In this document: one piece after another, positions 42,989 to 48,985 of the stretch
Layout of the letters: every line of letters starts with the position of its first letter
How positions within the stretch are numbered: the stretch's first letter is position 1
Source of the DNA: Acinetobacter brisouii CIP 110357
GTDB lineage: Bacteria; Pseudomonadota; Gammaproteobacteria; Pseudomonadales; Moraxellaceae
Length of the DNA: 64,000 nucleotides
Reading direction: 5' to 3'
NCBI RefSeq assembly: GCF_000488275.1
Contig: NZ_KI530762.1
Span: 2,140,971-2,204,970, forward strand
Notes under the pieces: model-generated
Told to the model about the DNA's origin: nothing
Databases searched by the model: none
What the model saw: the letters and a program-made list of their open reading frames with translations, nothing else
Position numbers and translations under genes: made by a program

Positions 42989-44179
42989 TTATGCAGTTAC
43001 TTTCGCAACAACACCAGCACCTACAGTACGACCACCTTCACGGATCGCGAAGCGTAAACCAGCGTCCATTGCGATTGGGTGGATCAATTCTACTGACATT
43101 TCTACGTTGTCACCAGGCATAACCATTTCAACGCCTTCTTTAAGAGAGATAGCGCCAGTTACGTCAGTTGTACGGAAGTAGAACTGTGGACGGTAACCGT
43201 TTAGGAATGGAGTGTGACGACCACCTTCGTCTTTAGAAAGTACGTATACTTCTGCGTCGAATTTAGTGTGTGGCTTGATTGTACCTGGTTTAGCAAGTAC
43301 TTGACCACGTTGTACGTCTTCACGTTTAGTACCACGTAGAAGAACACCACAGTTCTCGCCCGCACGACCTTCGTCTAGAAGTTTACGGAACATTTCTACG
43401 CCAGTTACAGTTGTTTTAACTGTATCTTTAATACCAACGATTTCTACTTCTTCGCCTACTTTAACGATACCAGACTCAACACGGCCTGTTACTACAGTAC
43501 CACGACCAGAAATTGAGAATACGTCTTCGATTGGCATCAAGAATGCTTTGTCGATAGCACGTTCTGGTTCTGGGATGTAAGAGTCAAGTGCTGCAACTAG
43601 ATCAAGAACTGATTGCTCGCCGTAAGGACCAGCTTCACCGTTAAGAGCAGCAAGCGCTGAACCACGGATTACAGGAGTGTCATCACCAGGGAAGTTATAA
43701 GCAGAAAGAAGTTCACGAACTTCCATTTCTACCAATTCAAGTAATTCTTCGTCATCTACAAGGTCGCATTTGTTCAAGAATACGATGATGTAAGGTACAC
43801 CTACCTGACGAGAAAGAAGGATGTGTTCACGAGTTTGTGGCATTGGACCATCAGTCGCTGCACATACAAGGATCGCACCGTCCATCTGAGCAGCACCAGT
43901 AATCATGTTTTTAACATAATCGGCGTGTCCTGGGCAGTCAACGTGCGCGTAGTGACGAATTGGAGAATCGTATTCTACGTGTGAAGTATTAATTGTAATA
44001 CCACGTGCTTTTTCTTCTGGAGCTGAGTCGATTTGCGAGTAATCTTTCGCTTCGCCGCCGTAAGTTTTCGCACAGATCGTTGCGATTGCAGCAGTAAGAG
44101 TTGTTTTACCATGGTCAACGTGACCAATTGTGCCCACGTTTACGTGTGGCTTATTACGTTCAAACTTGGCTTTAGCCAT
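42989..44179 (-). CDS. tuf: elongation factor Tu
   Basis: This 396-residue GTPase delivers aminoacyl-tRNA to the ribosome. G1 is [10 protein letters not shown], the switch II region is [12 protein letters not shown], and G4 is [10 protein letters not shown]. Domains 2 and 3 are intact to the final [13 protein letters not shown] 44179 ([16 protein letters not shown]) has AAGGAAG 6 nt upstream. The extension to 44206 crosses an intercistronic hairpin and is rejected. It is the last gene of the str operon; a second tuf elsewhere is usual but cannot be seen here. Confidence 0.98.
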
Positions 44180-44201
44180 GATGATCTTCCTTTTTAAACT
44201 A

Positions 44202-44224
44202 CTCATGCAGGGTCACTGCATGAG
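44202..44224 (-). other. intercistronic hairpin between fusA and tuf
   Basis: CTCATGCAG (44202-44210) pairs perfectly with CTGCATGAG (44216-44224) around a 5-nt loop. No T run follows on the minus strand. It stands 22 nt before the tuf start and may be a processing or 5'-stabilising element that lets tuf exceed fusA in expression. Confidence 0.6.
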
Positions 44225-44273
44225 CACTTGGTTTTTAACTAAGAATTAGTTTGGGCTTATAGTAATCGAAAGA

Positions 44274-46412
44274 TTACTCGTCGTCACCTTTTTTACCGCC
44301 AGATTGGAATTTAGAAATAATGCCTTCAGCCACGTTACGTGGAGTTTCAGCATATTTAGCAAATTCCATAGAGTAAGTCGCACGACCTTGAGACATAGAA
44401 CGCATTTGAGTTGCATAACCAAACATCTCAGCCAATGGAACTTCAGCACGAATTGCTTTAGTACCACCAGGTAAATCGTCCATACCTTGAACCATACCAC
44501 GACGACGGTTTAAGTCACCCATGATATCGCCCATGTAGTCTTCTGGAGTTTCTACTTCAACTTTCATGATAGGTTCAAGCAAGATAGGATCTGCTTTCAT
44601 GAAACCATCACGGAAGGCATAAGAACCTGCCATTTTGAACGATAATTCGTCAGAGTCGACATCATGGTAAGAACCATCGAATAATGTCGCTTTAATACCC
44701 ACAACAGGGTAACCAGCCAAGACACCATTCTTCATACGTTCTTGAATACCTTTGTCAACTGCACCGAAGAATTCTTTAGGTACAACACCACCAACAACTT
44801 CTTCAACGAATTGGTATTCTTTACCAGCTTCTTCAACGTCAAGCGGTTCAAGGCGGACATATACATGACCGAATTTACCTTTACCACCTGTTTGACGTAC
44901 GAATTTACCTTCTTGTTCAACCGATTTTTTGATCGTTTCACGGTAAGCTACCATTGGTTTACCAATGTTCGCTTCAACACCGAATTCACGTTTCATACGG
45001 TCAACAATAATGTCAAGGTGAAGCTCACCCATACCCGCAATAATGGTTTGACCTGATTCTTCGTCTGTACGAACGCGGAACGATGGATCTTCTTTCGCCA
45101 AACGGCCTAAAGCGATTGACATTTTTTCTTGGTCAGCTTTAGTTTTTGGTTCAACAGCCAATGAAATTACTGGCTCTGGGAATTCCATACGTTCAAGTGT
45201 AATGATGTTTTTCTCATCACACAGTGTATCACCAGTGGTTACGTCTTTAAGACCTACACACGCAGCGATATCACCCGCACGGATTTCGTCAAGATCTTGA
45301 CGTTCGTTTGCGTGCATTTGCACGATACGACCGATACGTTCACGTTTAGATTTAACTGGGTTATATACTGGGTCACCTTGTTTAAGAACACCAGAATAAA
45401 CACGTACGAATGTCAAGTTACCTACGAATTTGTCGTTCATGATTTTGAACGCAAGTGCAGAGAACGGAGCTTCGTCAGATGCTTCACGAGTTGCTTTAGT
45501 TTCAGCTTTATCGTCAAGGATACCTTCGATTGCTTTAACTTCTGTTGGAGATGGCAAGAATTCAATTACAGCATCCAACATACGTTGAACACCTTTGTTT
45601 TTGAACGCAGAACCACAAAGCATTACTTGAATTTCAGAAGCCAATGTACGGGCACGTAAACCTGCGATGATGTCTTCTTTAGAAAGATCACCTTCTTCTA
45701 GGTATTTGTCCATCAACTCTTCAGAAGCTTCAGCTGCTGCTTCAACCATGTTAGTACGCCATTCGTTAGCAGTATCAACTAGGTCAGCAGGGATCTCGCC
45801 GTATTCAAACTTCATACCTTGAGATGCTTCATCCCAAATGATCGCTTTCATTTCGATCAGGTCAACAACACCTGCGAAAGTATCTTCTGCACCGATTGGC
45901 ACAACGATAGGCACAGGGTTCGCGCCAAGGCGAGTTTTCATTTGCTCAACAACACGGAAGAAGTTTGCACCAGTACGGTCCATCTTGTTCACGAATGCCA
46001 AACGAGGTACTTGGTATTTGTTTGCTTGACGCCATACAGTTTCAGACTGAGGCTGTACACCACCTACCGCACAGTAAACCATGCACGCACCGTCAAGAAC
46101 ACGCATAGAACGTTCAACTTCGATGGTGAAGTCTACGTGTCCCGGGGTGTCAATTACGTTGATACGGTGTTGTTGGAATTGGTTAGCCATACCAGACCAG
46201 AAACAAGTTGTTGCAGCAGAAGTAATGGTAATACCACGTTCTTGCTCTTGTTCCATCCAGTCCATTGTAGCTGCACCATCATGTACCTCACCAATTTTGT
46301 GAGAAACACCTGTGTAGTACAAAATACGTTCTGTAGTAGTTGTTTTACCTGCGTCAATGTGCGCAGAAATACCGATGTTACGGTAACGAGAAATCGGAGT
46401 TTGACGAGCCAT
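44274..46412 (-). CDS. fusA: elongation factor G
   Basis: This 712-residue translocation GTPase has G1 [12 protein letters not shown], switch [17 protein letters not shown]4 [12 protein letters not shown], domain [17 protein letters not shown] and domain [20 protein letters not shown] 46412 ([14 protein letters not shown]) matches the family start. An ATG four codons upstream (46424) has AGGA immediately before it, so initiation could occur at either. The gene is preceded by a long 183-nt spacer with a possible leader ORF. Confidence 0.97.
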
Positions 46413-46449
46413 GATGTCTGACATTCCTAAATGTGATCTTTAAAACAGG

Positions 46450-46473
46450 ACGCACCAATAAAAATTGATGCGT
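46450..46473 (-). promoter_or_regulatory. hairpin between leader ORF and fusA, alternative to leader pairing
   Basis: In transcript sense ACGCATCAAT pairs with ATTGGTGCGT around TTTT (10 bp, one U-G wobble), followed by CCTGTTTTAAAG. Its left arm contains part of GTACGCAT (46468-46475), which can instead pair with the start region of the leader ORF (46554-46561). Confidence 0.5.
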
Positions 46474-46498
46474 ACGAATACTCAAACTGTTGGGCAAC

Positions 46499-46561
46499 TT
46501 AAATACCCGCGAAAGCTCCACTTTGGTAGAGAGCCACGTTAAATCGAGCTGCGGTACGCAT
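46499..46561 (-). CDS. putative 20-residue leader peptide between rpsG and fusA
   Basis: This is a short ORF, MRTAARFNVALYQSGAFAGI, with an excellent Shine-Dalgarno (AGGAG, 7 nt before ATG) inside the rpsG-fusA spacer. The SD/start segment GAATACTCA (46561-46569) is complementary to TGAGTATTC downstream of the stop (46476-46484). ATGCGTAC at the start codon is complementary to GTACGCAT (46468-46475). These pairings exclude each other and the hairpin at 46450-46473. The layout resembles translation-coupled attenuation upstream of fusA. No experimental parallel is known to me. Confidence 0.4.
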   Translation of the reverse strand: MRTAARFNVALYQSGAFAGI

Positions 46562-46595
46562 GAGTATTCTCCTGATAAGGGACTGTCTTAACCGC

Positions 46596-47066
46596 TTAGA
46601 AACGGTAATGAGAGAAGGCTTTGTTAGCTTCAGCCATACGGTGCACGTCTTCACGTTTTTTGATCGCAGCACCTTTGCCTTCAGCTGCATCAAGCAACTC
46701 GCCAGCAAGACGTAAAGCCATAGTTTTTTCAGAACGCTTAGCAGCAGCATCTACTAACCAACGCATAGCCAAGGCAGTACGACGGGATGGGCGCACTTCC
46801 ATAGGTACTTGATAAGTAGCACCACCCACACGGCGTGCTTTTACTTCGACCATAGGACGAACTTTTTCAAGCGTAGCTTCAAAGAATTCAACTGGGTCTA
46901 CTTTGTTTTTTTCTTGAACGCGGTCTAAAGCACCGTAAACGATACTTTCTGCAATCGATTTTTTACCATCTTGCATAACGTGGTTCATGAATTTAGCGAT
47001 TGTTTGGCTACTGAATTTCGGATCCGGAAGGATTTCACGAGCAGCGACTACGCGACGTCTTGGCAT
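46596..47066 (-). CDS. rpsG: 30S ribosomal protein S7
   Basis: This 156-residue protein nucleates assembly of the 30S head and in E. coli represses the str operon. It starts [18 protein letters not shown] and carries [16 protein letters not shown] and [19 protein letters not shown] 47066 has AGGTG 7 nt upstream; the extension to 47129 runs through the structured spacer and is rejected. A 160-nt spacer separates it from rpsL. Confidence 0.98.
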
Positions 47067-47226
47067 TTTAATACACCTAATAATATGACACTTCAGGGTG
47101 ATCCAGCAGTGTGTGCAAGTGTCATGCACGCTTCGCTGGCCTTACTATACGTCGCTTGAATTACAAATCTATGAAGAATTCAAACAAGCGAAACGCTAAA
47201 GGATTTTTTGGTCTTAACGACTAAGA
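47067..47226 (-). promoter_or_regulatory. structured rpsL-rpsG spacer, possible S7 autoregulatory site
   Basis: The spacer holds a 9-bp stem, ATGACACTT (47085-47093 on the plus strand) with AAGTGTCAT (47117-47125). It also has a second inverted repeat TTGAATT/AATTCAA nearer rpsL. In E. coli S7 binds the rpsL-rpsG intercistronic RNA and represses translation. Position and structure make an equivalent site likely, but the binding motif was not matched base by base. Confidence 0.45.
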
Positions 47227-47601
47227 TTATTTCTTAGGACGTTTAGCACCGTATTTAGAACGTGACTGGTTACGATCTTTAACGCCAGCACAGTCTAAAG
47301 AACCACGAACGGTATGGTAACGTACACCTGGTAAGTCTTTAACACGACCACCACGGATAAGAACAACACTGTGCTCTTGTAGGTTATGGCCTTCACCACC
47401 GATGTAGCTAGAAACTTCAAAACCAGAAGTTAAGCGAACACGGCAAACTTTACGCATTGCTGAGTTAGGTTTTTTAGGTGTAGTTGTGTAAACACGTGTA
47501 CAAACACCACGGCGTTGTGGACAAGCCTTCAACGCAGGAACTTTGGATTTTTCAACCAAAGTAGTACGACCCTTGCGGATCAACTGATTTGTTGTTGCCA
47601 T
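47227..47601 (-). CDS. rpsL: 30S ribosomal protein S12
   Basis: This 124-residue decoding-centre protein starts [20 protein letters not shown] and ends AKRPKK. The streptomycin-determining residues are wild type: K43 in [13 protein letters not shown] and K88 in [13 protein letters not shown]. The start at 47601 gives the family length; the extension to 47664 would run through the promoter-proximal hairpin. It is the first gene of the str operon. Confidence 0.98.
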
Positions 47602-47627
47602 CTGGCAAGTCTCCCGTAAATAAAAAA

Positions 47628-47656
47628 CCTCAAAAAGAAAGTACCGCTTTTTGAGG
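47628..47656 (-). promoter_or_regulatory. terminator-like hairpin at the 5' end of the str mRNA
   Basis: In transcript sense CCTCAAAAA and TTTTTGAGG form a 9-bp stem around an 11-nt loop, followed by TTTTTTATTT and then the rpsL SD region (ACGGGAG). The predicted transcription start (about 47658) lies just before the first arm, so the hairpin would be the very 5' end of the mRNA. Confidence 0.6.
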
Positions 47657-47663
47657 GCAAACA

Positions 47664-47692
47664 ATTGTAAGCAAAAACGCCATATTGGTCAA
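47664..47692 (-). promoter_or_regulatory. strong sigma-70 promoter of the str operon
   Basis: On the minus strand TTGACC (47687-47692) and TACAAT (47664-47669) are each one mismatch from consensus with an exact 17-bp spacer. They lie about 65 bp upstream of the rpsL ATG, downstream of the ecsC-like gene. A start near G47658 is expected. Confidence 0.8.
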
Positions 47693-47737
47693 TATTCATC
47701 GCATACTACAACAGTATGCCGTGCATTTATGACCTGA

Positions 47738-48985
47738 CTATGAAGGATCATCTGGATTTATGGCTATTTTAGGGTGGGATGCCTTGCTTTTAGGCTCAGA
47801 TTCGGACACTGCTACAACCATTTTTTCAGGTTGTTTTTCTGTTACTGTTTGAGACTGAGTACGACGTGGACGACGTTGAGGCTTAGGCTTAGAAACCTCA
47901 ACCTCTTCAGAATTAATGCTTTTAAATTCAAGCTGATGTGTAGATTCTTTTGCCTGATTAAATTGTTCAACTGCAGCATAATAAGCCGCTAGTGTTGATA
48001 TTTTTTGATCAGGATGTTGCAGTAAATAATCTCGGGCAACTGAAAAAATGTGCTGTGCCTTTTGACCGATATCTTCAATAAACTGCCAGCTATACATTGC
48101 ACTGACACTTGCCGCAATCAAAGGTGTAATGAGATGTAAGGCACTGACTTTAGGTAAAGTATTCATCCATTGCCATTTAAATTCATGATTTTCATCCAGC
48201 AATAATTCTTTAAGCCACTCATCATCGTTATTTGAACCGAGCAAATGCTGTACAGCAGTTAAATCATTTTGCTCCAATAAACCATCTAGTGTTCGTAGTC
48301 CAAGCAATACACTTTGTTTTTCTAGCATCTGCTGTAAATTAATTTGCTGAAAAATATATTGCACAACATCATGATCTTGCTCAGTTAATGCAAAACCATG
48401 TGCCCGCCCTGTCTGGTAAATCGTGCGTAGCGCCAGCACCAGCGATGCTGGGATATCTACTCCAAGCCCAAACAAGCCTGTCGCACCAGAAAGTGCACCT
48501 TGCACGCCTGCAATCCATTTATTTTGTTCAGTCAATGCCTGACTAATCCGACCTGAACGTGAAATATCTTGCGACAACTCATGTAGAGATTCTGCCCCTG
48601 TTTGCTCCAAAATACTTTGTGTGGCGCTCAGTTTGTCTGAAAATATATGTAATTTTTGGAAACAATATTCTGAAATCTCGTCCATAGTCATCGGTGAAAG
48701 AAATTCAGCCACCTGACTGACTCGATCATAATGTTTGCCAAAAAATTGCTTGGAAATATTAGGAAAATAAACACGGATTAACTGCTGCGGGTCTTGAACA
48801 CCAAAACCCAATAGTGCAGGTTTTGACGCAGCTTCATTGACAACTTTTGAGGGGTTTTGTGAGCGCTGTAGTTGTTGACTATTCATCTGATTTAAAACTT
48901 TTAAACCTGATGTGCTGAGCTTTTTAGCCACTCCCAAAACCTGATTAAATTTACTTTGTGGATGCTGATTAACCTCTTTTGGCAT
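47738..48985 (-). CDS. EcsC family protein
   Basis: This 415-residue protein has an EcsC-like central domain (about 100-330) with the characteristic ATGLFGLGVDIPASLVLALRT segment and a second hydrophobic patch SALHLITPLIAASVSAMYSW. The C-terminal 70 residues are a basic, proline-rich, low-complexity tail (KPQRRPRRTQSQ). EcsC in Bacillus accompanies the EcsAB transporter, but in proteobacteria the family usually stands alone and its role is unknown. GAGGAG lies 6 nt before the ATG. It sits directly upstream of the str promoter on the same strand. Confidence 0.8.
   Translation of the reverse strand: MPKEVNQHPQSKFNQVLGVAKKLSTSGLKVLNQMNSQQLQRSQNPSKVVNEAASKPALLGFGVQDPQQLIRVYFPNISKQFFGKHYDRVSQVAEFLSPMTMDEISEYCFQKLHIFSDKLSATQSILEQTGAESLHELSQDISRSGRISQALTEQNKWIAGVQGALSGATGLFGLGVDIPASLVLALRTIYQTGRAHGFALTEQDHDVVQYIFQQINLQQMLEKQSVLLGLRTLDGLLEQNDLTAVQHLLGSNNDDEWLKELLLDENHEFKWQWMNTLPKVSALHLITPLIAASVSAMYSWQFIEDIGQKAQHIFSVARDYLLQHPDQKISTLAAYYAAVEQFNQAKESTHQLEFKSINSEEVEVSKPKPQRRPRRTQSQTVTEKQPEKMVVAVSESEPKSKASHPKIAINPDDPS

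Follow-up and report, generated by a model that had tools for sequence, protein, structure and literature searches.

The 183-nt spacer between rpsG and fusA of Acinetobacter brisouii CIP 110357 carries a 20-codon mini-ORF set in an RNA fold of three helices (P1, P2 and P3), and we consider it probable (roughly 0.6) that the two form a translation-responsive, cis-acting leader of fusA and probably also of tuf. From comparisons among sequences, this leader probably tunes the amount of elongation factor made. EF-G and EF-Tu rank among the most abundant bacterial proteins, and the setting of their level relative to ribosomes has been little studied outside E. coli. A conserved leader peptide before fusA, present in roughly half of the Acinetobacter-type genomes that were searched, gives a practical way to approach this level, natural leaders that lack the ORF represent ready-made controls, and the apparent repeated swap of leader types at an essential operon is an unusual evolutionary pattern.

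In the window, i.e., the whole 64,000-nt stretch of DNA analyzed here, the minus-strand gene order rpsL, rpsG, fusA, tuf is that of the str operon. The features considered are, in the direction of transcription (window positions):

46596 to 47066, minus strand: rpsG (ribosomal protein S7), a 156-aa frame, the gene upstream of the spacer
46583 to 46590, minus strand: P1 5' strand, TAAGACAG in the window and TAAAACAG in most relatives, with pairing kept in all 59 distinct ORF-type spacers
46571 to 46580, minus strand: small hairpin CCT/AGG (46578-46580 with 46571-46573), masking part of the mini-ORF Shine-Dalgarno (SD) sequence, drawn by RNAalifold in both spacer classes
46569 to 46573, minus strand: mini-ORF SD AGGAG, with no variation at its columns among the 59 distinct ORF-type spacers
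46561 to 46569, minus strand: P2 5' strand GAATACTCA, spanning the stretch between the SD and the start codon together with the A of that codon, with covariation
46499 to 46561, minus strand: mini-ORF MRTAARFNVALYQSGAFAGI with a TAA stop, 20 codons in 70 of 70 ORF-type loci of the genus
46476 to 46484, minus strand: P2 3' strand TGAGTATTC, which begins 11-20 nt past the ORF stop in ORF-type spacers
46450 to 46473, minus strand: P3, a 10-bp hairpin near the fusA start, in which 99.3% of cells pair and both partners have changed in 4 of the 10 pairs
46441 to 46448, minus strand: P1 3' strand CTGTTTTA, within [TC]CCTGTTTTA, which occurs in 93 of 93 distinct spacers of the genus
46425 to 46428, minus strand: AGGA, the likely fusA SD (predicted function), invariant in the alignments of both classes
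44274 to 46412, minus strand: fusA (EF-G), an open frame and the likely regulated gene
about 42989 to 44176, minus strand: tuf, downstream of fusA

The best PDB sequence match of the rpsG product was chain g of 6v39, which we take to be the Acinetobacter baumannii ribosome (all 156 residues aligned, 6e-97); 2 of the 156 aligned residues differ. An ATG located in frame 12 nt upstream of the fusA start (46413-46424) would add MSDI to EF-G; as the upstream ATG runs into a TAG in many relatives, MARQ is the likely start of EF-G. The spacer length, the 20-codon ORF and its AGGAG 7 nt before the ATG had all been reported by an earlier sequence-only reading, and each is present as described.

Matches to the query region were found in 148 of 149 genomes of the genus. 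Seventy of these were full or near-full length at an identity of at least 86%, while 78 had a shorter spacer; about half of the genus genomes searched thus have a different, shorter leader. Spacers were taken from 110 of the 148 genomes, i.e., from all 70 of the long type (59 distinct spacers) and from 40 of the 78 of the short type (34 distinct spacers). All 70 long spacers contained the SD, the ATG and exactly 20 codons (stops: 67 TAA, 2 TAG and 1 TGA), and the mini-ORF was absent from all 40 short spacers examined. Among 49 distinct ORFs, pS was 0.425 and pN was 0.052, for a pN/pS of 0.123; the other five frames gave pN/pS values from 0.286 to 3.04, and none of 200 column shuffles reached a ratio as low as that of the mini-ORF. 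This substitution pattern indicates that the mini-ORF is under protein-coding selection, and it is presumably translated. The comparison with relatives that the sequence-only reading had called for thus found start, SD, stop, frame and amino acids kept, the latter over most of the peptide. As 78 of the 148 matched genomes of the genus carry the shorter spacer, the uORF is dispensable.

A peptide profile built from 14 peptides (cut-off 1e-3) matched 86 of 348 genomes of the family, representing 3 of 16 genera, i.e., 79 genomes from the genus of the window, 4 from a second genus (g10) and 3 from a third (g12). Strong matches accounted for 85 of the 86; the 86th (genome G083, 8e-4), one of the 79 from the genus of the window, was taken as chance, as it lies on another contig than the leader of that genome. 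The g10 loci encode MRIAARFNIALLASGGFAGI or a V variant; two g12 loci were read, and they encode MRTAARFNIAFLSSGRFAGIQHA and an insertion-bearing form, respectively. Three of the four g10 ORFs show 21-22 differences from the window-type ORF, of which 14-15 fall at codon position 3. The presence of the ORF in g10 and g12 suggests that this ORF type is old. Searches of 293 genomes of the order gave, besides the genome of the window, 13 weak matches (best 0.007), none of them credible; they were taken as chance because no rpsG or fusA match was found in the surrounding sequence of approx. 1.5-3 kb.

The conservation of amino acids over most of the peptide would also be expected if the 20-residue product acted in trans as a small protein, with its site before fusA being incidental. 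We regard this as very improbable, as the mini-ORF was located between rpsG and fusA in all 76 loci read (70 from the genus, 4 from g10 and 2 from g12; these loci were chosen by their rpsG-fusA neighbourhood), always in the P2 loop or in the spacer before fusA, and as it is absent from about half of the genomes of the genus. Moreover, the profile had a single strong match in the genome of the window, the mini-ORF itself (7.7e-14; next E 0.17), and none of four peptides submitted matched Pfam or NCBIfam. The peptide showed no obvious enrichment for any amino acid.

The spacer is also highly structured. Its predicted fold of -54.9 kcal/mol compares with a mean of -40.7 for shuffled sequences (z -3.70; none of 200 was as low), and the minimum free energy structure includes the small hairpin and all three helices. 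When the two classes (59 ORF-type and 34 ORF-less distinct spacers) were given to RNAalifold one at a time, it drew the same layout for both unprompted, i.e., P1, the CCU/AGG hairpin, P2 and P3 (with additional pairs inside the ORF for the ORF-type spacers). In ORF-type spacers, 98.6% of cells were paired and 6 pairs (42 cells) were double-changed, while slid versions were 33-44% paired; in ORF-less spacers, the corresponding values were 97.2%, 15 pairs (53 cells) and 34-47%. In both classes, the percentage paired, the number of double changes and the covariation score exceeded those of all 500 shuffles, which ignore the relatedness of the sequences, and of all slid versions. The number of further pair types was reached by 17 (ORF-type) and 5 (ORF-less) of 500 shuffles, which likewise ignore relatedness. 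Overall, this comparison shows the fold made up of the three helices to be conserved.

P2 is the helix with which the sequence-only reading had joined the SD/start segment to sequence past the stop, and the covariation check proposed there upheld it. The clearest P2 pairs are a U-A/C-G exchange at columns 32-121 (28 double changes) and a C-G/U-A exchange at columns 34-119 (6); 96.6% of P2 cells are paired in ORF-type spacers, and the pair at columns 28-125 is broken in 13 of the 59 distinct ones. The mini-ORF sits in the P2 loop. As P2 persists in the ORF-less class, it must be more than a mask for the ORF. The small hairpin is likewise retained in ORF-less spacers, with 93.1% of cells paired and 2 of 3 pairs changed on both sides. 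P1, which the sequence-only reading lacked, comprises 8 bp and closes the whole structure; its 5' strand starts at the sixth nucleotide past the rpsG stop, and the fold ends about 28 nt from the fusA start. Since no double changes were found in P1 in either class (59 ORF-type and 34 ORF-less spacers), this helix rests on its invariance within the genus (100% and 99.2% of cells paired); by eye, its outer pair is C-G in g10, as compared to T-A in the genus. Coding selection, occurrence in other genera, covariation in both classes and the fold of the spacer as compared to shuffles together make the combination of a chance ORF with chance pairing in a spacer a negligible prospect.

A covariance model built from ORF-less spacers alone scored the window leader at 77.3 bits, and no further copy in the same genome exceeded 20.8 bits. 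With this model, one place each was found in 171 of 344 family genomes (167 from the genus of the window and 4 from g10); there was no match in 4 genomes of the genus, and g12 was not found under the stricter filters used. One genus genome without a model match (G076, locus L215) has a spacer of 114 nt, and its leader may have been lost or degraded. Rfam gave no match at gathering score in the window; at a relaxed threshold, positions 46350-47300 gave one match below gathering score, a snoRNA on the opposite strand (E 4.8).

These structural data would also be consistent with the three-helix RNA being bound by a protein or processed by an RNase and thereby separating the expression of rpsL-rpsG from that of fusA-tuf, with the uORF being an add-on in the P2 loop rather than a sensor. 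P1, P2 and P3 do persist in spacers without the ORF, and folded rpsG-fusA spacers are common elsewhere (28 of 37 spacers of at least 60 nt have z below -2). Furthermore, uS7 is described to regulate the E. coli str operon, and hence S7 and EF-G output, through an mRNA site (PMC10931766, available text), which is a comparable setting. However, the same source places the known S7 site between rpsL and rpsG, i.e., upstream of rpsG and not of fusA, while the Acinetobacter element lies downstream of rpsG. Such an element would also leave unexplained the strict conservation of the peptide in three genera, and no Rfam family was found at gathering score. We therefore consider this explanation possible, but rather unlikely. 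The rpsL-rpsG spacer of the window (47067-47226, 160 nt) has only weak structure (z -1.46; as low in 17 of 200 shuffles), so that it shows no obvious S7 site of the E. coli kind.

The sequence-only reading had further proposed that the SD/start segment pairs in two mutually exclusive ways, i.e., GAATACTCA with TGAGTATTC (46561-46569 with 46476-46484) or ATGCGTAC with GTACGCAT, the latter partner being shared with the 10-bp hairpin at 46450-46473. All of these pairings are present in the sequence; the first is P2 and covaries, but the second was rejected as a conserved alternative, as it was 96.0% paired with 0 compensatory cells and its covariation score was no higher than those of shuffles. 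The ATGCGTAC and GTACGCAT strands are constrained by the Met-Arg codons and by P3, respectively. The partner of the competing helix, the P3 5' strand, matches CGCAYCAW in all 59 distinct ORF-type spacers and in none of the 34 others, and linkage alone could explain this association. As the competing helix shows no compensatory change, two exclusive conserved states are unsupported by the sequences.

P3 was also assessed as an intrinsic terminator, and this role was rejected; with a script of our own, its tail, (U/C)CCUGUUUU, scored 0.56-1.81 among the 93 distinct spacers, as compared to about 5.1 for eight consecutive T. The attenuation or coupling layout suggested by the sequence-only reading holds insofar as a conserved mini-ORF lies in a covarying RNA upstream of fusA, while the poor U-tract of P3 renders classical terminator attenuation doubtful. 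In such a classical system, P3 and CCTGTTTTA would act as a leaky intrinsic terminator, and the position of the ribosome on rpsG or the uORF would set readthrough into fusA. A terminator-like match at 46450-46473 and a candidate attenuator between rpsG and fusA in streptococci (PMC2965389, available text) are in line with this account. Terminator-like sites were, however, no more common in 44000-48500 than in shuffles (3 found as compared to 3.7 expected), and neither the U-tract nor the proposed competing helix lends it support; overall, we judge it improbable.

Modelled ribosome positions did not consistently change access to the fusA SD, which had a mean unpaired value of 0.23 when the RNA was free, 0.35 with the rpsG stop occupied, 0.18 with a ribosome at the ORF start and 0.23 with one at mid-ORF or at the ORF stop. 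With the rpsG stop occupied, pairing of a UCCUG stretch with the fusA SD rose from 0.04 to 0.32 (ORF-less class: 0.12 to 0.37). A toggle of the fusA SD through UCCUG was nevertheless rejected, since the fusA SD became no less accessible on average (0.23 to 0.35; ORF-less class: 0.28 to 0.30).

Under our preferred reading, a translation-responsive leader, a ribosome entering the translated uORF would have to open P2, and a ribosome finishing rpsG would cover the 5' strand of P1; translation would thereby decide whether the closed three-helix state forms. The closed state could then alter fusA-tuf output through RNA processing or stability, through RNA polymerase pausing or leaky termination, or through access to the fusA start. 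The strong conservation of the peptide suggests that the event sensed may be the passage of the peptide through the ribosome. In ribosome arrest peptides such as SecM and TnaC, translation of a short conserved peptide controls the next gene; the mini-ORF peptide has no obvious resemblance to the arrest peptides known to us. A bolder version of this reading, to which we assign a low probability, is that the nascent peptide serves as a sensor of EF-G or translocation activity. In cells where EF-G is scarce or blocked, ribosomes would linger on the uORF and keep P2 and P1 open, and fusA-tuf output would rise; species would then swap sensing and non-sensing leaders by recombination.

The distribution of the two leader types was assessed on a quick tree of rpsG and the first 1260 nt of fusA from 91 loci. 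Four loci (L002, L003, L192 and L200; the genome of the window and G132, each twice) were left out and are represented by L001, which has the same spacer as the window. ORF presence required 12 changes on this tree, 9 of which well supported branches make unavoidable, and 11 changes among the 82 rows of the genus. Forcing the 48 ORF rows into a single group, which was named after the first tree had been seen, cost 732 log-likelihood units (p-AU 1.9e-5). Spacer identity over the aligned part was 65-72% for five pairs of opposite type (gene distance 0.064-0.106), as compared to 82-93% for seven pairs of the same type (gene distance 0.064-0.144). As linkage between the ORF and the P3 type is complete, yet ORF presence changes 11-12 times on the trees, and as a single clade is rejected, leaders appear to be exchanged as units; repeated replacement of whole leaders by recombination seems the best account of the pattern.

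Leader peptides encoded by uORFs are a known class, with candidates including ilvB and fthC (PMC11109978, available text). As in these candidates, the Acinetobacter leader combines a short ORF with conserved start, stop, frame and SD with a structured leader of one gene family; the ilvB and fthC leaders, however, are described with terminator stems, and ilvB with codons of the regulating amino acids, while here the downstream gene encodes EF-G and the terminator is poor. Acinetobacter, Moraxella, rpsG and elongation factor are not mentioned in the main text of that paper. The streptococcal candidate lies in the same spacer of the str operon; it is predicted to consist of an intrinsic terminator and an antiterminator, with no uORF described in the available text of PMC2965389, where neither Acinetobacter nor Moraxella occurs. 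The Pelagibacter rpsL motif is a three-stem junction in the str operon that is occasionally located before fusA (PMC2704228); according to the available text, it is confined to Pelagibacter and marine metagenomes, usually precedes rpsL and is described without a uORF. Neither a uORF before fusA nor this leader RNA in Moraxellaceae was found in the available text of the literature searched, mostly papers accessible without subscription (including PMC4263303, PMC7247131, PMC11481537, PMC10219788 and PMC2864571). Thus, uORF leaders and rpsG-fusA attenuator candidates are known, while a uORF before fusA and the Moraxellaceae RNA appear undescribed in this literature.

Other arrangements of the spacer were also observed. 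Five loci (L168, L169, L172, L175 and L180) have a further leader type without the CAGGA box, with a CGCATTAAG P3 and with P1 kept. In two g12 loci (L229 and L239), a hairpin with a T-run that by eye resembles a terminator lies between rpsG and the leader of P1, uORF and P3, so that the leader would there belong to fusA alone. Among 80 named loci (L031-L110), mostly from other gamma- and betaproteobacteria, 71 spacers were extracted, including the 37 of at least 60 nt referred to above (60 shuffles each); several Burkholderia- and Comamonas-type spacers showed, by eye, GC-rich stems followed by T-rich tails.
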